Source: Kutzneria viridogrisea
GTDB taxonomy: Bacteria; Actinomycetota; Actinomycetes; Mycobacteriales; Pseudonocardiaceae
Assembly (NCBI GenBank): GCA_014138725.1
Contig: JACJID010000001.1
Span: 372,001 to 436,000 of the forward strand
Length of the DNA stretch: 64,000 nucleotides
Direction of reading: 5' to 3'
The stretch's first letter is position 1, and every line of letters begins with the position of its first letter. A model generated the notes under the pieces. It was not told where the DNA came from, did no database searches, and saw nothing but the letters and a program-made list of their open reading frames with translations. The translations under genes were made by a program, and so were the position numbers. Below, in pieces: positions 13,421 through 34,042 of the stretch.

Positions 13421-16400
13421 TCAGCCAGGTCGGCCGGGGTGGCGGGGGGCTCGGTGGCGGCCGAAGCCGATCTCCACGGGGTGCACGCCCCAGAGCGTGT
13501 CGCCGAGTTCGCGGCGGCGGATGTCGTAGCCCTCGTTGCCCGCACCGGGCTCCTGGCGGCGGGTCGGGGCACCGGCGTAGCGCAGGCCGGGCTCCAGGTG
13601 CTCGCGCTTCATGACCACGCTGTGCGGCATCACCGAGGTGTACTCGCCGACCACCGCGCCGTAGAGCGGCACGGTGGCGTTGCCCAGGGTGGAGTGCGCG
13701 CCCACCCGCACGTGGCCGATCTTCAGCACGCGGTCCTCGAAGGTGTGCGCCTGGAACATGGCGTTGACGGTGGCCCCGTCGCCGAACTCCAGCATGTCGG
13801 GGTCCACGATCTGCGCGAAGCCCTCGCCGAGCACGACCCGCCTGCCGATGCGCATGCCGATGCAGCGCAGGTAGATCGGCAGCAGCAGGGTCCCCTCCAG
13901 TGTGGACAGTGCCCGCCCGGCGATGAAACCCCAGGCCACGTAGAGGAAGTCCCAGCGGCTGCACCAGCAGGACCACAGCGGGTGGGTGCCCTCGCGGACC
14001 CGTCCGAGCAGGCCCCACTTCAGCACCAGCACCACCAGGCACAGCCCCGCCGCGGTGGCCAGGCTGACCGCGGGCACACCCACCAGCAGGAAGGCCCAGA
14101 ACGGCAGCACCGAGACCGCGACCACGCCCGCGGTCCACAACGTGAAGGCGGCCAACGGGAACAGGGGCAGGGTGAACCGCAGCCACTCCCAGAAGAAGCG
14201 GTTCACCACGCGGATCGTGGCGGGCTCGTGGGTCAGCGAGCGGTCCACGCTGACCACCTCGCGGCGCGGCAGCTCGAACGGCGGATGGCCGAACCACGAG
14301 CTGCCCGGGCGCACCAGGCTGTCGTCGGCCACGGTGGAGATGCCGATCAGGATGTCCTCGGGCAGGCTCTGCCCTGGCGGGATCACCGCGTGGTTGCCGA
14401 GGAAGGTGTTGGCGCCCAAGGACACCTCGCCCAGCGACACCACACCCCGCTGGATGCGCGGGCCGCCAAGGTAGATGCCGTCGGCGAAGAAGGTGTCCCG
14501 GTCGATCCGCACCAGTTCGGGCACCACGTCGATGATCGTGCTGATCTCGCAGCCCGTGCCCAGGCGCATACCCGCGGCACGCAGCCACCATGGCCAGAAG
14601 ATGCCGCCGCTGAGCCAGGTACCGGCCGAGTTGACCAGCCCCGACTTGAGCCACACGCGGATGTACCCCGGGCTCCACCGGCTGATCACACCGGGTGTGA
14701 CGGGGCCGAGTACCTGTGCCGCAACGGCTTGCACCGCCACCGAGCCGACTAGCGCCAGGCAGGCGGACACCGCCAGCGTCACGAGCAGCGGCAGGTTGTC
14801 GGCCGGGTGGGCCAGCGCCGCGAGCAGCGACTTGTAGCTGAGGTCGAACCAGGCGCTGATCAGCACGAAGCTCAGGGTGTACGGGATGGCGGTGAACCAG
14901 CTCAGCGCGCTGTTGGCGAGGATCGTGGCCAGGCCGTGCATGCGCGGTGAGAGCTGGCGGCCCGTGCTGGTCGGCCACGGCGGGGTGGGCGCCGCACCGG
15001 CCGGTTGCGCGGGCACCCCGTCCCAGCGCTCGCCCTCTGCAACCGTGCCACCGGCGGGTAGGAAGGCCAGGGCGGACAGCCAGGAGTCGCGGCCCAGCGT
15101 GGTGTTGGGCCCCATCCCGGACCGGGTCTCCAGCGTGGCGCCCTCGTGCAGGGTGACGCTGCCGAGCACGACCTGCCCCGCGTCCAGGTGCACCAGCCCG
15201 AGCTGCACGTCCTGGCCGATGGTGACGTCGTCGCCGATCTCCAGCAGGTCCCAGCCGCCCTGCTGGAGGTTGACCCCGCGGTGGATGTGCACGCGTTTGC
15301 CGATGCGCGCGCCCAGCGCGCGCAGTGCCGTGCACTGGAACTCGGTGCCCGCGATGGTGTTCCACGGCACGAAGCGCAGGAACTGGCGCACCACCCACAT
15401 CCGCACGTGGAAGCCGCTCCAGGCCGGGGCGCGCACCGCCTCGTACCGGCCGATCAGCAGCTTCTTGGCCGTGACGGCGATGGCCACGGACAGCGGGGTG
15501 AACACGGCCGTGACCAGGCTGAACAGGAGCGGGGACAGCTCGATCAGCGGTACCAGACCGAGTACGTCGGACAGCCAGGGCAGCACCCAGAAGACCGTGA
15601 AGAAGGCGACCGCTGCGCCCAGCACCAGTTCGCCGAGCAGCCACACCGACTGCGCCGCGGTGGCGGCCAGCGCGTTTCCGCTGCCGTACCTGGACTTCGC
15701 GGAGTCCGAAGTGGACTCCGGCGGCACGGCACGGCGGGCGAGTTCGCCGACCGTGCGCGCCTCGTACAGGTCGCGCACGGTGATACCGGCTGTCGCGGGC
15801 TGCTTGCGCAGCTCGGTGATGAGCATCGCGCCCGTCAGCGAGTTGCCGCCCAGCGCGGTGAAGAAGTCCTCGTCCGCGGCGGGCGGGTGGCTCAGGTTGA
15901 GCACGCGCTGCACGGCCTGGGCGATGCCCAGTGCCAGGGGGTCCTGTGGCGGGGGACCAGCGCTGCGCGGCCCGCTCGTGCCCACGGCCAACTCGGGCAG
16001 CTCGCGGCGGTTGAGCTTGCCGCTGGTGTTGCGCGGCAGCTCGGCGATCGTGCCGAACACCGCGGGCACCATGTACTCCGGCAGGGACTGCCGCAGTCCC
16101 TGCCGCAGGGACTCGTCCTCCGGCGGTGCGGCCGGGTCGACGGGCACGATGTGCGCGGCGAGCACCTGCCCGGCGCCCTCACCCTGCACCCGGCAGGCCG
16201 CCTCGCGCACGCCGGGGCAGCGCGACAGACAGGACTCGATCGCCTCCAGCTCGATCCGGTAGCCGCGCAGCTTGACCTGCGAGTCGATCCGGCCGTGGTA
16301 GAAGATCGTGCCGTCCGGCTCGGCGTGCACCAGGTCGCCGGTGCGGTAGACGCGCCCGAAACCGGGATGGCGCGGGAACTTGTCCGCGTCCAGCTCGGGC

Positions 16401-17512
16401 TGGTTGAGGTAGCCGACCGCCAGGCCCGGCCCGCCCATGCACAGCTCGCCGCGCTCACCGGCCAGCACCGGGTTCAGGTCCTCGTCCAGCACCCAGGCCC
16501 ACATGCCGGGCACCGGCTTGCCGATCGCGACCGGTTGTCCCGCGACGATGTCCTGGCGCAGGCAGGTCACCGTGCACTCGGTGGGGCCGTAGCCGTTGAC
16601 CATGCGGCGCCCGCGCGACCAGCGCTCGGCCACGTCCTCGGGCAGCGCCTCACCGCCCACGTAGAGCAGGCGCAGCGCGGGCAGTTCGGTCTCCGGGTCG
16701 GCGCACCCCGTGGCGCGCAACAGGGTCGGCGGCGGGCAGAGCACGGTGATGCGCTCCTCGCGCAGCCACGGCACCAGGTCCGGCCCCAGCCGGGCGGTCT
16801 CGTCGTCCATCGGCACGACCGTGGCGCCCGCGGCCAGCGCCAGCCACACCTCCTCCACCGAGGAGTCGTAGGCGGGGGAGGAGCCCTGCGCCACCCGGTC
16901 GTCGATGCCAAGGCCGAACTCGGCCAGGTCCCCGCCGACCAGGTTGCCCGCGCCCCGGTGGGTGATCATCACGCCCTTGGGACGGCCCGTGCTGCCCGAG
17001 GTGTAGATCAGGTACGCCAGGTCCTCCGGCTCGGGGTGCGGGGGCAGCGGGGCGGCCACCGGCAGCAGCGGCAGGTCCGCCCGGATCACCGGACCGCCAT
17101 AGCCCACGCGGGCCGCCCGCTGTGCGCCCACCTCGTCGGTGATCAGCGCCCCGGCCGCGCTGTCCCGCAGGATGTGCGCGAACTGGTCGTCGGGGAAGGA
17201 CGGGTCCACGCACACGTAGGCCGAGCCCGCGCGCAGCACGGCCAGCTGCGCCGCGTACAGGCGCGGGGTGGTGCGGCCCAGCAGGATCGCGGTGACGCGG
17301 CCCTGGCCGGCGGCGGCCCGCACCATGCCCGCGAGCAGGTCGCTGTCCCGCTTGAGTTCCGCGTAGGTCAGGGTCTGGCGCTGTGGGCGGTCGGAGGCGG
17401 GTGGCACGTCGACCGCGAGGGCACCGGGCCAGCGTCGTGCGGAGTCCTCGAAGAACTCGCTGAGCACCGCCGGGGAACTGGTCCGGGGCCGCTGCTCAAC
17501 GGTGGAGGACAT
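13421..17512 (-). CDS. Pls-like NRPS: adenylation-thiolation plus membrane and acyltransferase-like C-terminus
   Basis: A 1363-residue single-module synthetase. The adenylation domain spans residues ~20-500: YTSGSTGRPKG near 170, NGYGPTE near 305, YRTGDL near 400 and NTSGKLNRREL near 490. A carrier domain has GGNSLTGAM near 560. The remainder is the 'NRPS terminal domain' (TIGR02353-type): hydrophobic segments alternating with three left-handed beta-helix-like blocks starting GARIGKRVHIH, GTGCEISTI and GMRIGRRVVLG. This layout and length match epsilon-poly-L-lysine synthetase (Pls, about 1,320 residues). The hand-read specificity residues D-S-E-C-Y-G-G-V-T-K include Glu at position 239, as in lysine/ornithine-type codes. 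There is no condensation or thioesterase domain. The start lies inside the SET gene's end. Confidence 0.87.
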   Translation of the reverse strand: MSSTVEQRPRTSSPAVLSEFFEDSARRWPGALAVDVPPASDRPQRQTLTYAELKRDSDLLAGMVRAAAGQGRVTAILLGRTTPRLYAAQLAVLRAGSAYVCVDPSFPDDQFAHILRDSAAGALITDEVGAQRAARVGYGGPVIRADLPLLPVAAPLPPHPEPEDLAYLIYTSGSTGRPKGVMITHRGAGNLVGGDLAEFGLGIDDRVAQGSSPAYDSSVEEVWLALAAGATVVPMDDETARLGPDLVPWLREERITVLCPPPTLLRATGCADPETELPALRLLYVGGEALPEDVAERWSRGRRMVNGYGPTECTVTCLRQDIVAGQPVAIGKPVPGMWAWVLDEDLNPVLAGERGELCMGGPGLAVGYLNQPELDADKFPRHPGFGRVYRTGDLVHAEPDGTIFYHGRIDSQVKLRGYRIELEAIESCLSRCPGVREAACRVQGEGAGQVLAAHIVPVDPAAPPEDESLRQGLRQSLPEYMVPAVFGTIAELPRNTSGKLNRRELPELAVGTSGPRSAGPPPQDPLALGIAQAVQRVLNLSHPPAADEDFFTALGGNSLTGAMLITELRKQPATAGITVRDLYEARTVGELARRAVPPESTSDSAKSRYGSGNALAATAAQSVWLLGELVLGAAVAFFTVFWVLPWLSDVLGLVPLIELSPLLFSLVTAVFTPLSVAIAVTAKKLLIGRYEAVRAPAWSGFHVRMWVVRQFLRFVPWNTIAGTEFQCTALRALGARIGKRVHIHRGVNLQQGGWDLLEIGDDVTIGQDVQLGLVHLDAGQVVLGSVTLHEGATLETRSGMGPNTTLGRDSWLSALAFLPAGGTVAEGERWDGVPAQPAGAAPTPPWPTSTGRQLSPRMHGLATILANSALSWFTAIPYTLSFVLISAWFDLSYKSLLAALAHPADNLPLLVTLAVSACLALVGSVAVQAVAAQVLGPVTPGVISRWSPGYIRVWLKSGLVNSAGTWLSGGIFWPWWLRAAGMRLGTGCEISTIIDVVPELVRIDRDTFFADGIYLGGPRIQRGVVSLGEVSLGANTFLGNHAVIPPGQSLPEDILIGISTVADDSLVRPGSSWFGHPPFELPRREVVSVDRSLTHEPATIRVVNRFFWEWLRFTLPLFPLAAFTLWTAGVVAVSVLPFWAFLLVGVPAVSLATAAGLCLVVLVLKWGLLGRVREGTHPLWSCWCSRWDFLYVAWGFIAGRALSTLEGTLLLPIYLRCIGMRIGRRVVLGEGFAQIVDPDMLEFGDGATVNAMFQAHTFEDRVLKIGHVRVGAHSTLGNATVPLYGAVVGEYTSVMPHSVVMKREHLEPGLRYAGAPTRRQEPGAGNEGYDIRRRELGDTLWGVHPVEIGFGRHRAPRHPGRPG

Positions 17513-18014
17513 AGCCGTCGCGCACCGCCTCGTCGGCCAGGTGGGGTAGCAGGTGCTCGGCCAGCAGCGGGCGCAGCCGCCGCCTGCTCTGCGCGGACAG
17601 GTGGCGGAAGCCGCTGATCCGGCCCTCGCACTGCGCGCTGCCGCAGCGGCAGTCGAAGGGCTCGGCCATCTCGTACTCGGTGGTGCCGTAGTGGAAGGTG
17701 ATCTCCTGCCAGCGCTCGATCGGGCGCAGGGCGAAGAACTGCCTGCCGTCCAGCCGCACGTTGGGCTCGCAGCTGTGGTTGGTGAACCGCCAGAAGAACC
17801 GGTCCATCACCTCCTCGGTGCCGTACCTGTCCGGCAGGTCGATGTGGCTGTCGGGGCCGATCTGCACGGAGTACCGGGTGGGTACCCCGGTGATCTCCCC
17901 GTTGACCTCGAACAGGCGGCTACCGGTGGCGAAGGGCCTGCTCGCGACGATCGTGTACTCGCCGCCGGACCGCACTACCGCGACTCCGCTGTTCTCGCTG
18001 GTCATCACGTGCAT
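17496..18014 (-). CDS. SET-domain lysine methyltransferase-like protein
   Basis: A small SET protein of about 172 residues. The SAM-binding signature RFTNHSCEPNV is near residue 80, EITFHYGT lies about 30 residues later, and a post-SET cysteine cluster FDCRCGSAQC follows. A second N-terminal ATG at 18005 is equally plausible, with GAGGTGGG lying just upstream of 18014. SET enzymes methylate lysine side chains with S-adenosylmethionine. The last 17 bases overlap the start of the Pls-like synthetase, so the pair must be co-translated. That makes a lysine-bearing product of the synthetase an attractive substrate, though this is inference only; protein substrates are equally possible. Confidence 0.82.
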   Translation of the reverse strand: MHVMTSENSGVAVVRSGGEYTIVASRPFATGSRLFEVNGEITGVPTRYSVQIGPDSHIDLPDRYGTEEVMDRFFWRFTNHSCEPNVRLDGRQFFALRPIERWQEITFHYGTTEYEMAEPFDCRCGSAQCEGRISGFRHLSAQSRRRLRPLLAEHLLPHLADEAVRDGYVLHR

Positions 18015-18154
18015 CCCACCTCGGTACCGTGTTGTGTCGGACACTGTCCTGGCACTACGGGTGCGGTGGTGTCGTGGTTCATCCTGGGCGCGAAGTCACT
18101 TCGGGTTCAAGGCTCCGGCACGGTCAGCCCGTTCGGCTGCCTTCCCAACAGGTC

Positions 18155-22408: not shown

Positions 22409-22909
22409 CTAGACGGCCACCGGCTCCAGGGCGCCGATCTCCGCCAGGGACAGGCCGATCTGCTCGTGCAGGAAGCGCACCATGGTCCAGTGCGGCAGCG
22501 CGTCCTCGTCGAACGGCCCGAACTCCCGCTGGTAGAGCGGGATCCACCGCAGCGCCTGCTCGATCGCCTGCTCGCGGCCCGGTTCCCGCTGGTAGTCCTC
22601 GTAGGCGATGCTGCGGTGCTCGATGAAGCAGCGGCCGGGCAGCGCCTGTTCGCACAGCTGGCGGTACTCCGCGGTCTGCAGGATCAGGTAGTGCCACACC
22701 TCGTCGATCTCCTGCTCCACCGGCAGGAACAGCCCGGCCAGCCGCTCGCGGTGCTTGGACACGAGGTAGAGGTAGCGCAGGCATTCGAGGACCTGGCGGC
22801 GCACGAAGGGCTCCTCGGCACCGGTCTCGTGCACGAAGTGCTGGACGACCTCCTCGTGCAGCTGCTCGCCGAGCAGCGCGCGCAGGTGGTCGGCGGTGAC
22901 CGCGGGCAT
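22409..22909 (-). CDS. GRDP/DUF1399-like protein of the putative RiPP cassette
   Basis: A 166-residue protein read from ATG 22909, with CAGGAGTAGTC upstream; the gap to the ligase stop is 2 bp. The central block EIDEVWHYLILQTAEYRQLC near residues 68-86 and FIEHRS near 95 resemble the D..WH....Y...C.....H pattern of glycine-rich-domain-containing (DUF1399) proteins, where the polar residues look like a metal or active site. No function is established for that family. Being the third gene after a short precursor and an adenylating enzyme, it is a candidate modification or partner protein. Confidence 0.62.
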   Translation of the reverse strand: MPAVTADHLRALLGEQLHEEVVQHFVHETGAEEPFVRRQVLECLRYLYLVSKHRERLAGLFLPVEQEIDEVWHYLILQTAEYRQLCEQALPGRCFIEHRSIAYEDYQREPGREQAIEQALRWIPLYQREFGPFDEDALPHWTMVRFLHEQIGLSLAEIGALEPVAV

Positions 22910-22911
22910 GA

Positions 22912-24159
22912 CTACTCCTGTCCTGAGCCGAGCTCGTTCACCAGCCAGGCGTACTTGCCCGACTTGCCGATCGGGATGTGGGTGCTGTGCAGCACCTCGC
23001 AGCGCAGTCCGGTGGCCTCGAACACCGTTCGGGCCAGTCGCGACTCGTCCTCCGGCGACAGGGAGTGGTTGTCGAAGGTCGTGTACGACAGCCGCGCGGT
23101 CTCCGTCACGTGCAGCTGGTACACGAAGACCTCCGGCGTGGTCCCGCTGATCCAGCTGTCCAGGTCGTCCTGGGAGACCAGGGCCCGGTCCAGCCGCAGC
23201 AGTTCCTTCTCCCGCCCGCAGAAGCGGGTGATCTTGGTGGGGTCGGGCGTGCCGTCGGCGGTGCGGGCGCAGTCCCCGGAGCGGTAGCGGATCAGCGGCA
23301 TGTACGGGTTGCGCACGCTGGACACGATCAGGCTGTAGATCGTGCTGCCCGGCGCGACCGGCAGCAGTTCCACGCTCATCTTGTCCAGGTACGGCCGGTA
23401 GGTGCCGTCCGGGTCGCTGTAGTACATGTAGCCCAGTTCGGTGCTGCCGAACAGGTCCACGATGGGGCAGTCGAACACCAGCTCCAGGTACCGCCGCACG
23501 TTCACCGGGGTGTACTCGTAGGCGTGCACGATGCTGGCGGGCTTGGGGAACCGGTCCCACAGGTCCCACTCGGTGACCTTCCTGGCCAGGTGGGCCAGGT
23601 GGTAGCTGGAACAGTCCAGGTGGTACCAGCCCTGCGGATGTGCCTGCTGTACAAGGGAGATCTCCGACAGCATGCGCTCGACGTCGGCGCGCTGCCACAG
23701 CTGTGGGTCCAGGTGCAGGTTGAGGTACGTCGTGCGCTCGTCCAGCCGCCGGTCCGCCAGGCTGGGCACCGGCTGCGGCTGCCCGCCGTGCTTGGCCGCG
23801 TTGACCCGCGCCACGTGTTCGGTGGCCAGCACGGTGGTGATCGACACGCGCTGGCAGTCCGCCGCCCAGGTGCGGCTCAGCTCGGGGTGCTCGCTCCACA
23901 GCCGGTAGTAGGACTTCAGCAGGAAGTACGGCGGCCGGATGATCTGCATCCGGGCGTGGTTGGTCCCGGTGGACAGCACGAACTCGGCCTGTCCCGTGCG
24001 CAGGGCCTCAGCCAGCTGCGGGGTCATCCAGTTGTCCGGGAAGCCCCGCGCGATCTCCGTCTTCTCCAGCACGGGGAAGTGGCCCCGGCGCACCGAGTCT
24101 CGGTAGATCGGGATCTGGCTGACCTGCTCGACCATCTCAGCGGTCGGTTGACCGTCCAT
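22912..24159 (-). CDS. PaaK-like adenylate-forming enzyme of the putative RiPP cassette
   Basis: A 415-residue protein from ATG 24159. It resembles the phenylacetate-CoA ligase/CapK group of the ANL superfamily: LSTGTNHARM near residue 62, DLFGSTELGYMYY near 220 (equivalent of the A5 motif), PLIRYRSGDCA near 275 and FCGREKELLRLDR near 300 (hinge region). The C-terminal domain looks present but short. Such enzymes activate a carboxylate as the acyl-adenylate, often forming a thioester. No carrier protein is nearby. A 42-residue peptide gene lies just upstream, so the target may be that peptide (inference). Confidence 0.8.
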   Translation of the reverse strand: MDGQPTAEMVEQVSQIPIYRDSVRRGHFPVLEKTEIARGFPDNWMTPQLAEALRTGQAEFVLSTGTNHARMQIIRPPYFLLKSYYRLWSEHPELSRTWAADCQRVSITTVLATEHVARVNAAKHGGQPQPVPSLADRRLDERTTYLNLHLDPQLWQRADVERMLSEISLVQQAHPQGWYHLDCSSYHLAHLARKVTEWDLWDRFPKPASIVHAYEYTPVNVRRYLELVFDCPIVDLFGSTELGYMYYSDPDGTYRPYLDKMSVELLPVAPGSTIYSLIVSSVRNPYMPLIRYRSGDCARTADGTPDPTKITRFCGREKELLRLDRALVSQDDLDSWISGTTPEVFVYQLHVTETARLSYTTFDNHSLSPEDESRLARTVFEATGLRCEVLHSTHIPIGKSGKYAWLVNELGSGQE

Positions 24160-24185
24160 GGACCTCGTTCCCCAGGTGGTGGTGG

Positions 24186-24213
24186 GGCGGGGTGGGCACC
24201 GGCCCACCCCGCC
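24186..24213 (-). terminator. Hairpin directly after the 42-residue precursor gene
   Basis: A perfect 12-bp GC stem (GGCGGGGTGGGC with its complement) around a 4-base loop, 6 bp past the precursor stop and 26 bp before the ligase start. There is no T tract. It probably acts as an attenuator or RNA stabiliser that makes precursor mRNA exceed enzyme mRNA. Confidence 0.6.
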
Positions 24214-24219
24214 CTCGGG

Positions 24220-24348
24220 TCAGCGGCTGATGCAGCCGGTCTTCGCCCGGGAGATACAGCCGTCCTTGCCCGAGCCGTTGGCGGAGTTCGCCGCGACCCA
24301 CTGGGACCAGTTGCCGTCCTGGGCGATCTTCTTGATCAGCTGCTCCAT
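24220..24348 (-). CDS. Candidate RiPP precursor peptide (42 residues)
   Basis: This short frame has an excellent ribosome site (AGGAGGTTCGGC then ATG). The peptide opens MEQLIKKIAQDGNWSQW, an amphipathic leader-like helix. A small-residue linker (NSANGSGKD) follows, and the end is GCISRAKTGCISR, in which GCISR occurs twice. The C-terminal part holds both cysteines plus Ser and Thr, typical of a modified core. It is followed at once by a hairpin and then two genes for an adenylating enzyme and a DUF1399-like protein. No lanthionine, lasso or YcaO enzyme is beside it, so the modification type is unknown. It could instead be a small structural or signalling peptide. Confidence 0.68.
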   Translation of the reverse strand: MEQLIKKIAQDGNWSQWVAANSANGSGKDGCISRAKTGCISR

Positions 24349-24454
24349 GCCGAACCTCCTGGGATGGTGATCTACGGACGCCTCCGACAGTAAAGGCATG
24401 GCAAAGCAAGGGTCAAGGCGTCGATCGGACCGATTGGCCTCGTGACCTGGTATT

Positions 24455-28471: not shown

Positions 28472-28546
28472 ACCAACAATTCTACTCCACTATTCGCACC
28501 AAAACCGTTGCCCGCCAATGGCTAACCATGTGGGTGACCAACCCGG

Positions 28547-28660
28547 GGTTGGTTTTGTGTGGGTAGCGGCGGCCTTACGCTGGCTGGCGAAATCGGGGCT
28601 GCCTGCACGCCCCGACTACCCCGATTAGGGCCGCCGCGAGGGACCCGCACCAAACCAACC
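28547..28660. repeat. 115-bp inverted-repeat element, copy A
   Basis: The ends are imperfect ~30-bp inverted arms (GGTTGGTTTTGTG... against ...CACCAAACCAACC, both continuing through CGGCGGCC), with a nested AATCGGGG/CCCCGATT stem inside, so the whole element folds as one long cruciform. The same element occurs at 49133-49246 and 49767-49881 in opposite orientation. It sits exactly 75 bp upstream of the HNH gene, between it and the GGGACTC array. It may be a non-autonomous mobile element, a nuclease target or a structured promoter region. Confidence 0.82.
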
Positions 28661-28692
28661 CACGTCACCAGCCCGGCAACACCCCGCACGCC

Positions 28693-29196
28693 GGGACTCG
28701 CGCCCCCCACACCGGGACTCACGCTCCTCAGCCCGGGGCTCACCGACCTGAGCCCGGGACTCGCGCTCTGGAGCCCGGGACTCACCGACCTGAGAGCGGG
28801 ACTCGCGTGCCGGAGCCCGGGACTCGCGCCCCCCACGCCGGGACTCGCGCTCTGGAGCCCGGGACTCACCGACCTGAGAGCGGGACTCGCGTGCCGGAGC
28901 CCGGGACTCGCGCCCCCCACGCCGGGACTCGCGCTCTGGAGCCCGGGACTCACCGACCTGAGAGCGGGACTCGCGTGCCGGAGCCCGGGACTCGCGCCCC
29001 CCACGCCGGGACTCGCGCTCTGGAGCCCGGGACTCACCGACCTGAGAGCGGGACTCGCGTGCCGGAGCCCGGGACTCGCGCCCCCCACGCCGGGACTCGC
29101 GCTCTGGAGCCCGGGACTCACCCACCTGAGAGCGGGACTCGCGCCCCTCAGACCGGGACTCGCGCTCCCCAGCCCGGGACTCACGCCCCCACACCG
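28693..29196. repeat. Array of 24 x 21-bp GGGACTC repeats with an 84-bp higher-order unit
   Basis: GGGACTC begins at 28693 and recurs in strict 21-bp register to 29176, which is 24 units (one reads GGGGCTC). Each unit continues RCG or ACC and then ~11 variable bases. Four different units (variable parts ending in CCTGAGAGC, TGCCGGAGCCC, CCCCCCACGCC and CTCTGGAGCCC) form an 84-bp block repeated about four times from 28777. Since 21 is a multiple of 3 and the units lack stops, long spurious frames open on both strands with GTR heptads. There are no spacers, so it is not CRISPR. Confidence 0.93.
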
Positions 29197-29370
29197 GAAC
29201 ACACCAACCCCCAACACACCACCCCCCAACCCCCAACACACCACCTCGGAACCCCCAACACACCACCCCGCAACGTCGAACACACCACCCCGCAACGTCG
29301 AACACACCGCCCGCAACGTCCGACACACCACCCCGCAACGTCCGACACGCGCCGCATCCCCAACCCCGCC
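29197..29370. repeat. Second short-repeat family (CACACCACCCCGCAACGTC type)
   Basis: Immediately beyond the GGGACTC array, several 21-22-bp units built on ACACACCACCCCGCAACGTC recur (CAACGTC at about 29271, 29293, 29314 and 29336). The same family, in complement, is interleaved with the GAGTCCC arrays at 48.8 and 49.3 kb. No gene is seen here. Confidence 0.75.
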
Positions 29371-29411
29371 GCACCCCGTCAACCCCTCACCCCCACCTCA
29401 CCCCGTCACCC

Positions 29412-32405
29412 TCACCCCGTCACCCTCACCCCCACCCGGCCCCCCGCTGGCTCACCCGCCTCGCGGCTGCCGTACTGGCGGAAGGTCGCCAGCGCCTCCT
29501 GCCAGGTCGTCTCGGCGGCGGCGCTGTCGCCCGCCAGCGCCTGGGCGCTGGCCACGTCGCGCAGGGTGCGGGCCCGCCACAGTGGCAGGTCCAGTCCGCT
29601 CCACCACTGCACGGCGCGGTCGAGGTAGTCCAGCGCGGCCTCGGCCCGCCCGTCGGCCAGTTCGCGCTCGCCGAGGGTGCGCAGCATCAGTGCCTGCCCG
29701 AACCCGTCCTGCACCTCGTGGCAGGTCCGCAGGCAGTCGGTGAGCCAGTCGAGCACCTGGGCGCCGCGTCCCTGCCGGATCAGCACCTTGGACAGGGACT
29801 GCGTGGCGTAGGCGAGCATGTGCTGGTCGCCGATCTCGCTCATCATGCGGCGGGCCAGCACGCAGTCGCGCTCGGCGAGGTCGAGTTCGCCGAGGGCGCG
29901 GTGGATGATCCCGGTGGAGCGGATCGCCAGCGCCTGCCCGTACCGGTCGTCCAGGTCCTGGTACGCGGCGACGGCCCGCTCGCACTCCTGGGCGGCGGCG
30001 GGCAGGCGCCCCAGCTCGGTGAGGATCATGGCCCTGCCGTGCACCGCGCGGGCACTGAGCTGCGGGTCGCCCAGTGAGCTCAGCACGGGGGTCAGTTCGT
30101 CCAGTGTGGACAGTGCGGGGCGCAGTCTGCCCCACTCCCGCTGCGCGCTGCACAACTTCAGCTGGGCCACGGCGCGGCCGTAGTCGTCCCCGGTCTCCCG
30201 GTAGATCGTCCGCGCGCGGTCCAGGTAGTCCACGGCCTCGTCGAGCCGGTCCTGCTCGAAGCGCAGGTTGCCCAGCCCCACCAGCAGGGAGGCCTCGCTG
30301 GCACGGTCCCCGCTGCGGTGCGCGGCGTCCAGTGCCGCCGAGTGCGTGTGCCACCACTGGCTGAAGTGGTTGCGCACGGAGAACGCGGAGGAGGACAGGG
30401 TGGCGGCCAGCGTGGCCGCCGCGGTGACCAGCCCCAGCTCCGAGGCGCGTTCCACCAGGCCGACGAGCACCGAGCCCTCGGCGTCCAGCCAGGCGGTCGG
30501 GTTGGTGAGCAGCCTGCGCGTGACCTCCTCGCCCAGCGGCGGCTGCCCCAGGTGACGGGTCAGCTCCGGCGCGGTCCCGCGGGGCATGTGGTGGGTGGCG
30601 AACTCCACCAGCGCCGCGGCGTACCGCGTGCAGCGCTCCACCGCCTCGGGTTCGGGCTCGGCCTGCTCACGGCAGAACTCCCGGGTCAGGTCGTGCAGGG
30701 TGTACCGGACCGCTCCGGTGCCGTCGGGCGTGGCGGTGTCCAGCAGGGTGGCGTCCACGAGGCGTTCCAGCACCTCGTCGGCGGCCTGCGGCGGCAGGTC
30801 CAGCAGCGCGGCGACCAGCCAGCCCGCGAAGTCGGTGACGCCGAGCATGCCGAGTCGGCGCAACGCGATCCGCTCCAGCTCACCCAGTCCCTCGTAGCTG
30901 AGCATCAGGCTGCCGCGGACCTCCAGGTCGCCCAGCACCAGCTCGTTGAGCAGGCGGTGCTGCGCGCGCAGCCTGCCCTGCAACTCGGCGAGGGGCCACT
31001 GCGGACGGGCGGCCAGCCGTGCGCCGGTGATGCGCACCGCGAGCGGGAGGTGGCCGCACAGCCGCACGATGTCGGCGGCCTGCTCCGGCTGTGCGGCGAC
31101 CCGCTCCGGTCCGGCCAGCGCGCCGAGCAGGGCCAGCGCCTCGGTGTCGGCGAACACCGGCAGGTCCACGTGCACCGCACCGGCCACCGCGCCCAGCCGT
31201 CTTCGGCTGGTGATCAGCACCGCGCAGCCCGCCGCGCCGGGCAGCAGCGGGCGGACCTGCCCCTCGTCGGCCGCGTCGTCCAGCACCACCAGTGCCCGGC
31301 GGCCCGCCAGCAGGGAACGGAACAGGGCCGCCCGCTCGTCCAGGCCGGCGGGTACGCCGTCCTCGGGCACACCCAGCGCGTGCAGGAACCGGCCGAGCAC
31401 GGCGCTGGGCTGCTGCGGGCTCGCGGTGGCCCCGCGCAGGTTGACGTAGAACTGGCCGCCGTCGAAGTGCTGCCGCACCCGGTGGCAGACCCGGATGGCC
31501 AGCGCGCTCTTGCCCGAGCCCGGCTTGCCCGCGACGGCCGCCACGGCGATCGTGCCCTGCTCGGCGAGCAGGTGCGCGGCCAGCCTGGTGATCTCCTCCT
31601 CGCGGCCGGTGAAGTCGGAGATGTCGGGTGGCAGCTGGGCCGGTGCGGGCGCGTTGTGCCGCGGCTCCACCCGCCGGGGGCCGTCGCCGCGCAGCACCTG
31701 GGCGTGCACGGCCCGCAACTCCGCGCCCGGCTCGATGCCCAGTTCCTCGACCAGCAGCCGGCGGATCTGCTCGTAGCAGCGCAGCGCCTCGGCCTTGCGG
31801 CCCGCCTGGTGCAGCGCCAGGACCAGTTGCCCGCGCAGGCGTTCCCGCAGCGGGTGCTCGGCGACCTGGGCGGTCAGCTCGGCGACCAGCTCCGCGCCCT
31901 CGCCCAGGGCCAGTCGGGCGTCGGCCAGGTCCTCCGAAACGGCCAACCTGGTCTCCGCCAAACGGTCCCGTTCAGCGACGGCCCACTCGCCGTCCACGTC
32001 CAGCAGGGCCGTGCCACGCCACAGCTCCAGCGCGGCGAGCAACTCCTCGGCGGCCTGCTGGAACCGCTCCTCGGCCAGCGCCGACCTGCCGCTGGCCACG
32101 CGCGCGGCGAACACCTGAAGGTCGACCCGCGCCGCCTCGGCGACCAGCAGGTACCCGGCTGACCTGCGCACGACCAGTTCGCCGCCCAGCGCCGAGCGCA
32201 CCGCGGAGACCAGGCTGTGCAACCGGGCCCTCGGGTCCGACGGCGGATCAGCCCCCCACAGCGCGGAGATCAACGCCTCCGCCGACACCACCCGTCCCGC
32301 GTTGACCGCGAGCACGGCCACCAACGCCTTGGGCTTGCGCCCGGTGATCGGTACTTCCACACCGTTCCGCAGGGCCAGTACCGGCCCCAACACGCACACG
32401 TCCAC
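29412..32405 (-). CDS. SARP/AfsR-family transcriptional regulator
   Basis: A 997-residue regulator read from GTG 32405. It has an OmpR-type winged helix (VDVCVLGPVLALRNG to ~95), a bacterial transcriptional-activation helical domain (~100-250), an NB-ARC ATPase with Walker A AGKPGSGKSAL near 300 and VVLDDAAD near 380, then a winged-helix region and C-terminal TPR-like repeats from ~650. SARPs activate secondary-metabolite or morphological genes by binding direct repeats near -35. It is divergent from the secreted hydrolase/lectin pair (122-bp gap), which are its most likely neighbours under control. Its 3' end reaches the short-repeat region, so the last residues (GGRVGVRVTG) may be repeat-derived. 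Confidence 0.9.
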   Translation of the reverse strand: MDVCVLGPVLALRNGVEVPITGRKPKALVAVLAVNAGRVVSAEALISALWGADPPSDPRARLHSLVSAVRSALGGELVVRRSAGYLLVAEAARVDLQVFAARVASGRSALAEERFQQAAEELLAALELWRGTALLDVDGEWAVAERDRLAETRLAVSEDLADARLALGEGAELVAELTAQVAEHPLRERLRGQLVLALHQAGRKAEALRCYEQIRRLLVEELGIEPGAELRAVHAQVLRGDGPRRVEPRHNAPAPAQLPPDISDFTGREEEITRLAAHLLAEQGTIAVAAVAGKPGSGKSALAIRVCHRVRQHFDGGQFYVNLRGATASPQQPSAVLGRFLHALGVPEDGVPAGLDERAALFRSLLAGRRALVVLDDAADEGQVRPLLPGAAGCAVLITSRRRLGAVAGAVHVDLPVFADTEALALLGALAGPERVAAQPEQAADIVRLCGHLPLAVRITGARLAARPQWPLAELQGRLRAQHRLLNELVLGDLEVRGSLMLSYEGLGELERIALRRLGMLGVTDFAGWLVAALLDLPPQAADEVLERLVDATLLDTATPDGTGAVRYTLHDLTREFCREQAEPEPEAVERCTRYAAALVEFATHHMPRGTAPELTRHLGQPPLGEEVTRRLLTNPTAWLDAEGSVLVGLVERASELGLVTAAATLAATLSSSAFSVRNHFSQWWHTHSAALDAAHRSGDRASEASLLVGLGNLRFEQDRLDEAVDYLDRARTIYRETGDDYGRAVAQLKLCSAQREWGRLRPALSTLDELTPVLSSLGDPQLSARAVHGRAMILTELGRLPAAAQECERAVAAYQDLDDRYGQALAIRSTGIIHRALGELDLAERDCVLARRMMSEIGDQHMLAYATQSLSKVLIRQGRGAQVLDWLTDCLRTCHEVQDGFGQALMLRTLGERELADGRAEAALDYLDRAVQWWSGLDLPLWRARTLRDVASAQALAGDSAAAETTWQEALATFRQYGSREAGEPAGGRVGVRVTG

Positions 32406-32527
32406 ACGATCCCCCTCCCCCCGAACAGGAGCTTGGCCAGCGTTCCTTCCGCTGTCAAGGAGATCCACGCAGGCGGTGCACAGGAATCGAGCAGGAATCG
32501 GGAAGGTCGGGCACCGAGGCTGCGGGC

Positions 32528-34042
32528 ATGAACGTGACACGAACAACCAGAGGGCGGGGGCACCGTGCCAGACGCGTGCTCACCGGCCTGCTCGCCACGG
32601 CGGGTCTGCTGGTGAGCGGGTTGAGCCTCGGTACGGCCCCGGCCACCGCCAGCTCGGTCGGCGGCCAGATCACCAGGGACGAGGTCCTCTCCCGGGCCCA
32701 GGACTGGATCAACGAGCACGTCCCGTACAGCCAGAGCCGTTCCTGGACCGATGCCAACGGTACCTACCGCCAGGACTGCTCGGGCTACGTCTCGATGGCC
32801 TGGCACCTGCCCAAGCTGCCCGGCGGTGGGGACTACAGCACCGCCACGATCACCCAGGTCACCAACACGATCGCGCGCGGTGACCTGAAGCCGGGCGATG
32901 CCCTGTGGCGGCGGGACTCCAGCGTGCAGCACATCGGCCTGTTCATCGCCTGGGCGGACGCCGCCCACACCAGCCCGGTCGTGCGCCAGGAGCCCGAGGA
33001 CGGCAAGTTCGCCGAGCAGGTCACCTGGTCCGCTTCCTATGCCAACACCTTCACTCCGGTGCGGTACAAGAACATCGTGGACGGGGCGGCCCCCAGCGAC
33101 CCGCTGCCGGGTTCCGCGTCCTACCGGTACAACAACCAGCAGCTGTCCTTCGCGCGTGGCGCCGACGGCAGCCTCCAGCACTACTGGTGGATTCCCGGTG
33201 AGGGCACCCGGCACGACTCCTGGGGCGGCCAGATCGTCGGCCAGCCCACCGGCTTCGTCTACGGCAACCAGCAGCACGTCTTCGCCCGGGGCGTCAACGG
33301 CACGTTGCAGCACTGGTGGTGGATCGATGACGGCTCAGGCGTGCACTTCGCCGACTGGGGCGGGGAACTGACCTCCGACCCGACGGCTGTGGTGTGGGGC
33401 GATCAGCAGCACATCTTCGCGCGGTCGAAGAAGGGCACGCTGGAGCACTGGTGGTGGACCCCGCAGGACGGGCTGCACATCGCCGACTGGGGCGGGGAAC
33501 TGGCCGGTCGGCCCACCGCGATCTCCTACGGCAACCAGCAGCTGATCTTCGCCCGTGGTTCGGACAACCAGTTGCACCACTGGTGGTGGATCAACGACGG
33601 TTCCGGGCTGCACTACGACTCCTGGGGCGGCTCGCTGGACGGGGACCCGGCCGCGATGGTCTGGCAGAACCAGCAGTTGGTGTTCGCCCGCGGCACCGAC
33701 GGCACGTTGCAGCACTACTGGTGGATGCCCGAGTCGGGGCTGCACCACGACTCCTGGGGCGGTCAGATCGTTGGCAGGCCCGCGGTGATGGTGTGGGACA
33801 ACCAGCAGTTGGTGTTCGCCCGCGGTACCGACGGCAGTCTCCAGCACTACTGGTGGATCTCCGGTGAGGGCACCCGGCACGACTCCTGGGGTGGCAAGCT
33901 GACCGACGACCCCTCGGCCTTCGCCTACGACAACCAGCAGCACGTGTTCGCCAAGACCACTGACAACTCGCTGTTCCACTGGTGGTGGATCAACGACGGT
34001 CAGGGCACGCACACCATCAGTTGGGGCGGGAGCCTGGGATGA
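32528..34042 (+). CDS. Secreted NlpC/P60-like hydrolase with seven-bladed lectin-like propeller
   Basis: A 504-residue exported protein (signal peptide to about residue 42). Residues ~45-185 resemble the NlpC/P60 cysteine-peptidase fold: YRQDCSGYVSMAW (catalytic Cys) near 85 and VQHIGLFIAW (His) near 135. Residues ~195-504 are seven repeats of about 44 residues, each of the form NQQ.VFARG.DG.L.H.WW.......H..SWGG, as in tectonin/PLL-type sugar-binding propellers. It probably cleaves peptidoglycan peptides while bound to glycan. Its stop overlaps the next gene by ATGA; the two proteins share the same propeller type. Confidence 0.85.
   Translation: MNVTRTTRGRGHRARRVLTGLLATAGLLVSGLSLGTAPATASSVGGQITRDEVLSRAQDWINEHVPYSQSRSWTDANGTYRQDCSGYVSMAWHLPKLPGGGDYSTATITQVTNTIARGDLKPGDALWRRDSSVQHIGLFIAWADAAHTSPVVRQEPEDGKFAEQVTWSASYANTFTPVRYKNIVDGAAPSDPLPGSASYRYNNQQLSFARGADGSLQHYWWIPGEGTRHDSWGGQIVGQPTGFVYGNQQHVFARGVNGTLQHWWWIDDGSGVHFADWGGELTSDPTAVVWGDQQHIFARSKKGTLEHWWWTPQDGLHIADWGGELAGRPTAISYGNQQLIFARGSDNQLHHWWWINDGSGLHYDSWGGSLDGDPAAMVWQNQQLVFARGTDGTLQHYWWMPESGLHHDSWGGQIVGRPAVMVWDNQQLVFARGTDGSLQHYWWISGEGTRHDSWGGKLTDDPSAFAYDNQQHVFAKTTDNSLFHWWWINDGQGTHTISWGGSLG

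Follow-up and report, generated by a model that had tools for sequence, protein, structure and literature searches.

A minus-strand peptide and ligase cassette of Kutzneria viridogrisea as a candidate new class of RiPP cluster

Known systems and the layout of the cassette

Cyanobactins, some microviridins and some fungal RiPPs are made from precursors in which a leader is followed by several near-identical core units, and the acylated RiPPs known as selidamides and lipolanthines use GNAT or FAS/PKS systems. The benzoxazole amide and ester ligases ClxA, NatL2 and AjiA1 join two small aromatic acids; ClxA is described as making amides and esters by way of an acyl adenylate (PMC12519233), NatL2 as forming an ester, and PaaK enzymes as acylating a thiol, that of CoA (PMC7204872). 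The cassette of Kutzneria viridogrisea described here resembles the multi-core precursors in its leader and repeated cores, but its unit is KxGC[I/V]S, and an AMP ligase and a GRDP-like protein take the place of their enzymes. With the selidamides and lipolanthines it would have acylation in common, as we propose below, but through a PaaK-like ligase. That ligase is like ClxA, NatL2 and AjiA1 in fold and sequence family, yet identity is about 15%, and its constant partner gene encodes a ribosomal peptide. Our reading, to which we give a probability of roughly 0.6, is that the cassette is a compact cluster and a candidate for a new RiPP class, with an acyl group put on every KxGC[I/V]S unit by the ligase.

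The window, by which we mean the whole 64-kb stretch of K. viridogrisea DNA analyzed, carries the cassette as three consecutive minus-strand genes: one of 42 codons for the peptide (24348..24220), a gene for a PaaK-family AMP (adenylate-forming) ligase of 415 residues (24159..22912) and, 2 bp further on, a gene for a GRDP-like, predicted all-helical protein of 166 residues (22909..22409). The peptide gene was assigned as a precursor gene from its homologues, dN/dS and unit pattern, the ligase from a profile match to ClxA and a Foldseek match to PaaK1, and the third gene from its profile family and structural model. Translation of the peptide would start from an AGGAGG ribosome binding site whose last base lies 6 bp from the ATG, and a stem-loop (24214..24185, minus strand) separates the peptide and ligase genes. 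The initial annotation had given exactly these coordinates for the three genes and had rightly noted the near-perfect ribosome site and the 2-bp gap; its 12-bp hairpin is real, but the stem is a perfect 13 bp. It had also reported no lanthionine, lasso, YcaO, radical-SAM or graspetide enzyme beside the peptide gene. This agrees with our searches, as no family of lanthipeptide, lasso, YcaO, radical SAM or graspetide enzymes matched the cassette proteins (Pfam and NCBIfam), seven neighboring proteins of the window (Pfam) or, at the other loci, the recurrent neighbors. Nor was any protease, RRE or aromatic-acid pathway gene recognized in the cassette or among the named recurrent neighbors. According to the Pfam scan of the window, the cassette is bordered upstream by a homocysteine S-methyltransferase gene on the plus strand and downstream by a gene for a GDSL/FG-GAP protein. 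Neither was seen among the recurrent neighbors elsewhere, as called by a simple gene caller that merged some genes and missed the window's own ligase and GDSL genes.

A promoter-like site of the form TTGACx-N18-TACxxT precedes the peptide gene (putative promoter at 24387..24416, minus strand, with TTGACC, an 18-bp spacer and TACTGT). Overlapping it are three in-phase TT[TG][AG]C units with an 11-bp period on the same strand, the first of which starts at 24416. The three-unit pattern at this period was present in 30 of 84 upstream regions and in none of the 84 at any other period between 7 and 16 or on the reverse strand, and it was absent in 50 rounds of mononucleotide shuffling. Repeat spacing of about 11 bp recalls the operators of SARP-type activators. 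A SARP-like gene is present in the window, and among the comparison loci a similar gene was found only at L081. The AfsR-like regulator gene (BTAD, NB-ARC, TPR; window 29412-32546, on the cassette's strand) was rejected as a conserved regulator, since only the window and L081 matched among 113 sequences. As for the intergenic stem-loop, at 73 of 90 loci (a count that includes duplicate records) the best hairpin beat all 20 mononucleotide shuffles. It is perhaps an attenuator or an RNA stabilizer, and it may govern how much peptide is made relative to the enzymes.

Distribution and co-inheritance of the three genes

To survey the ligase we scanned genome contigs of 84,980 species, one genome per species, with a method that reaches close relatives only. 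This yielded 77 loci, 68 of them in Streptomyces and nine in Kitasatospora, Amycolatopsis (two), Actinokineospora, another member of the Pseudonocardiaceae, Sinosporangium and Sorangium (three). Among 390 genomes of Pseudonocardiaceae, 11, the window's own included, encode a full-length ligase scoring at least 587 bits, and the next match reaches only 45.6 bits, so that paralogues are well separated. Among 396 genomes sampled from the phylum, the window's genome alone matched at E 1e-15. For comparison we compiled 84 distinct loci, window included and most of them from Streptomyces, with other Actinomycetota and three Sorangium, after merging L001, L006 and the window as one locus, together with four identical pairs, and after dropping L020 (28% identical) as a paralogue; further Streptomyces loci from the 372-genome survey described below are outside this set.

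A peptide homologue was found 60-344 bp before the full-length ligase gene at all 84 distinct loci, where distances and starts outside the window were extrapolated from tblastn matches. The weakest case, at L071, matched only at E 0.053, and it has the leader and four units. A GRDP-like gene follows the ligase at 81 of the 84 loci; at L093 and L106 the contig border intervenes, and L110, from Sinosporangium, lacks the gene. The peptide at this last locus (L110:7784-7900) has a single unit, KSGCVS, so that the locus stands as a minimal version of the cassette. Moreover, of 372 Streptomyces genomes 46 were hit by the ligase profile and 46 by a peptide profile run independently, and 45 were shared (Fisher p about 1e-55, kinship ignored). 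These genomes were assigned to Streptomyces because 15 of 30 retrieved loci match named Streptomyces loci identically from end to end. In the one genome with a peptide and no ligase (G862), the contig stops 30 bp past the peptide, and the one with a ligase and no peptide (G1077) holds a decayed operon, in which the ligase match spans 103 residues, the GRDP-like frame is broken and an MFS-like frame is present. The co-occurrence of the three genes, which the initial annotation had put forward for checking, is thus found at the compiled loci, and that of ligase and peptide also in the 372 genomes. Full-length ligase homologues lacking the short gene, its own suggested counter-evidence, did not appear among the 84 loci. 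We regard it as close to certain that the cassette is a real, co-inherited unit.

The Streptomyces survey places the ligase in 46 of 372 sampled species, with 45 of the 46 intact in length. The cassette is therefore present in about 1 in 8 sampled species of the genus best known for natural products, and named strains such as S. griseus (L077), S. rimosus (L039) and S. noursei (L040) carry it. In an unrooted ligase tree of 84 rows built with a quick method, the window, the other Pseudonocardiaceae and the three Sorangium loci were grouped with a support of 99. The Sorangium ligases form a single clade inside this group, a nesting that suggests transfer across phyla. Plasmid-borne spread was rejected, as PLSDB gave no match at E 1e-20.

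The peptide and its repeated units

The window peptide, MEQLIKKIAQDGNWSQWVAANSANGSGKDGCISRAKTGCISR, consists of a leader-like segment (residues 1-22), a spacer (23-27), the units KDGCIS (28-33) and KTGCIS (36-41), and a final R. No Pfam or NCBIfam model describes it, and Ldi, a Pfam family matched by 15 of 32 peptides (best E 0.00085), was taken for a chance hit. Homologues follow one plan, in which a conserved N-terminal segment of about 22 residues, mostly terminating in NSA in the 83 distinct peptides, is followed by a spacer of variable length and one to six K-x-G-C-[I/V]-S units. L4, W14, W17 and N21 are invariant in an alignment of 32 of the 83 sequences available. The pattern GC[IV][SC], of which the Cys is by construction a part, matched 242 units in the 83 distinct peptides, leaving out a few degenerate ones, and a Lys stands two residues before the Gly in 239 of them. 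Three units are present in 60 peptides, two in 15, four in five, and one, five and six in a single peptide each; successive units are spaced by 7, 8 or 9 residues in 154 of 159 cases. GCISR, the repeat singled out by the initial annotation, does occur twice in the window peptide, but the true unit is the six-residue KxGC[I/V]S. In Sorangium (L051, L085, L104) the units read KKAGCIS or RKAGCIS, and of the six GCIS units in L051 the first lacks the Lys.

Selection is strongest on these units. Over 359 non-independent pairs, dN/dS fell from 0.47 in the N-terminal segment to 0.37 in the spacer and 0.16 (0.157) in the units. A chance ORF is rejected by this purifying selection and by the homologues at 84 loci, and a hypervariable core by the fact that the units are the most constrained part. 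The conserved leader expected in the initial annotation was thus found, but the variable core was not. Conservation along the whole length, which that annotation would have held against itself, applies to leader and units, and the spacer, the number of units and the tail vary.

The peptide is therefore a ribosomally encoded product under selection, with a constant segment, a variable spacer and tandem units as its leader and core segments, and constant enzyme-like partner genes accompany it, as the 84 loci and the Streptomyces survey show. We infer that the N-terminal segment works as a leader, and, judged from the alignments, the architecture is that of a multi-core precursor with a core that is conserved rather than variable. 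With so conserved a core, the product should be nearly alike in all producers, and this suggests a single product with a conserved role, for example metal binding or signaling, rather than an arms-race antibiotic. The same conservation counts against a RiPP, as many RiPP cores vary. Nevertheless, we consider the cassette very probably a RiPP-type cluster. The RiPP-like reading of the peptide and its partner genes is thus supported by the near-perfect co-occurrence in both directions and by the leader with tandem core units, and had to be changed as regards the definition of the unit and the variability of the core.

The ends of the peptides bear on a different role for the ligase. It might adenylate the peptide's own carboxylate, for instance the terminal Ser of released units, which would give a ring or joined units. 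Consistent with this, the last unit's Ser is also the final residue in 70 of the 83 peptides, and release could thus leave internal and terminal units with one and the same C terminus. However, the other 13, the window's included, have residues beyond the last unit, and cleavage would have to come before adenylation, leaving the leader useless. We judge this unlikely, and keep to the acylation of each unit in what follows.

Enzymes, accessory genes and the proposed pathway

The window ligase has no Pfam match, only 2 of 48 aligned ligases gave a weak match to Pfam AMP-binding (best E 0.026), and in NCBIfam it stays below cut-off to the families of AMP-dependent CoA ligases, PaaK included (TIGR02155, phenylacetate-CoA ligase PaaK, 18.5 against a cut-off of 646.3 bits). 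The first solved structure reached by the ligase profile is ClxA (9s3l, E 3.2e-8). An AlphaFold model (pLDDT 92) has PaaK1 (2y27, E 1e-17) as its first Foldseek match in the PDB, followed by NatL2, ClxA, BT_0428 and AjiA1, and the highest TM-score belongs to BT_0428, a putative acyl-CoA ligase. The S63-T66 loop (STGT), T240, E241, D296 and K402 are invariant in a 48-row alignment (48 of 88 records, duplicates counted). Fold and nucleotide-binding residues thus agree in placing the protein among the PaaK-family/ANL adenylating enzymes, as its earlier label as a PaaK-like adenylating enzyme had implied. In ClxA, T222, D281 and K393 are described as binding phosphate, ribose and phosphate, respectively, and the paper and our alignments together liken ClxA to the window ligase in its ribose, phosphate and catalytic Lys residues (PMC12519233). 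We take these three as the equivalents of residues of the window ligase; for K402, the correspondence to K393 is our reading of the motif, as the profile alignment stops earlier.

As ClxA and NatL2 make an amide or an ester straight from the adenylate, we prefer direct transfer to the peptide. Ordinary CoA ligation would be the alternative, and the first fold match of the predicted model, PaaK1, is a true CoA ligase, which speaks against certainty. A related alternative is that the peptide is a carrier, whose Cys thiols are loaded as thioesters and whose acyl groups are acted on by the GRDP-like protein, the peptide then being reused or degraded. The thiol of CoA acylated by PaaK enzymes (PMC7204872) would be a precedent, every counted unit has a Cys, albeit as part of the search pattern, and the conservation of the units (dN/dS 0.157) would fit. 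But a carrier leaves the near-invariant Lys (239 of 242 units) without a role, and a precursor would better explain why the number of tandem units varies when the segment before them is constant, so that we think a carrier improbable.

On the preferred reading of a modified precursor, the N-terminal segment would be a leader bound by the ligase or by the GRDP-like protein. The ligase would adenylate a small carboxylic acid, perhaps aromatic, and the acyl group would be moved to a side chain of each unit, most likely the amine of the Lys, otherwise the Ser or Cys. The GRDP-like protein would then complete or assist the modification, a host protease would release the units, and the adjacent MFS protein, often present, would export them. 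That the ligase acylates the units has, in our estimate, even or slightly better odds; its substrate and its acceptor are guesses.

For the GRDP-like protein of the window, no Pfam or NCBIfam model matched. Single relatives gave weak hits in Pfam (Octopine_DH the best, E 0.0019, in 1 of 49), which were taken for chance. D69, E70, W72, H73, C86, H98 and R99 are invariant in a 49-row alignment (49 of 85 records, duplicates counted), and the His, Cys and Asp among them might form a metal site. The model contains predicted helices only (pLDDT 87) and has no fold match in the PDB (best E 3.6). RREs are usually winged-helix domains, so a protein predicted to be purely helical does not look like one of them. 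The DUF1399-like label of the initial annotation survives as a remote relation only, since PF07173 matched neither the window protein nor its 48 aligned relatives. GRDP-like/DUF1399 proteins (PF07173) share with the cassette family the stretch around vDeiWHxxILxTxxYxxxCxxxxGxFxxH, but the link passes only through an intermediate: the family profile reaches the L124 protein at E 0.009, and this protein reaches PF07173 at E 0.0027, with 18.8 bits under a curated cut-off of 22.7. The L124 protein is one of the scattered bacterial proteins hit by the profile, which carry the motif vDexWHxxILxTxxYxxxC...GxFxxH. Elsewhere in the window's genome there is a free-standing relative (L197:5916-6422; contig C1:1682915-1683418), which has a Cys-rich tail, DCGNCHEDGNC, and retrieves the cassette protein at E 1.5e-6. 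Its gene overlaps an unknown ORF of 376 residues, followed by an ORF that by eye looks like a phosphotransferase, and a similar kinase-like gene lies near a relative at L125; the L197 locus is possibly another module with a function of its own.

Accessory genes were counted within 8 kb at the 64 loci that had 6 kb or more of flanking sequence on each side, their Pfam families being confirmed on one example each. An MFS gene was present at 46 of the 64, a beta-carbonic anhydrase at 34, SulP also at 34 and a flavin monooxygenase-like gene at 11. In a separate query search, nearly all MFS matches (50 of 53) sit 2.0-2.8 kb downstream on the same strand, and at eight distinct Pseudonocardiaceae loci a different MFS gene lies downstream, on the opposite strand. 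The flavin monooxygenase-like gene is downstream in Sorangium (L051, L085, L104) and some Streptomyces, and in some Amycolatopsis on the opposite strand. Four arrangements of the carbonic anhydrase gene were seen, and no fewer than eight changes on the ligase tree are required to account for where it is present. In 20 Streptomyces genomes, hand-picked mostly for few contigs, this gene was within 10 kb of the cassette in 16, against 0.22 expected by chance (kinship ignored); the proximity script covered 53 of 97 rows, and for the four negative genomes the remaining rows, viewed by eye, showed none within 10 kb. At E 1e-15 the queries for MFS, carbonic anhydrase, SulP and flavin monooxygenase find nothing in the window itself, and we therefore consider the accessory genes lineage-specific and not part of the core.

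These neighbors also bear on whether the peptide is modified at all. It could act unmodified, as a small regulator or a metal-binding partner of the ligase and the GRDP-like protein: purifying selection extends over the whole peptide, tandem Cys units could bind metal, and carbonic anhydrase, often encoded nearby, is a zinc enzyme. Yet a released product is the better fit to units that vary in number and spacing and to the presence of an MFS gene close to 46 of 64 cassettes, and we hold an unmodified partner to be improbable. Going further with acylated units, a PaaK ligase acting on about three of them could yield a conserved product that is multidentate, bears thiols and has a role linked to inorganic carbon or zinc, with the adjacent carbonic anhydrase and SulP as a protected target or a partner pathway. 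We offer this as speculation that is unlikely to be right.

We consider the cassette new because no Pfam or NCBIfam models cover the window peptide and the GRDP-like protein and because the open-access papers searched contain no description of it. Most subscription chemistry journals lie outside the scope of that search, and an earlier description there is possible. None of six strings from the window peptide's repeat turned up in the open-access papers searched either, and the main text of PMC7794033 makes no mention of phenylacetate, adenyl, carbonic or AMP-binding. Should the peptide be modified by the ligase, PaaK-family AMP ligases would join the known enzymes of RiPP pathways, and a GRDP-like protein would gain a first function.

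Finally, two other features of the window deserve mention. A gene for a Pls/PosA-like NRPS (13421-18044; TIGR02353 below and TIGR01733 above cut-off) overlaps the gene of a SET-domain protein, and we know of no NRPS/SET-domain pairing of that kind. Positions 28522-29382 hold long in-frame tandem repeats (SPGLQSASPGVGGASPGLR and similar), which are readable in several frames and on both strands.
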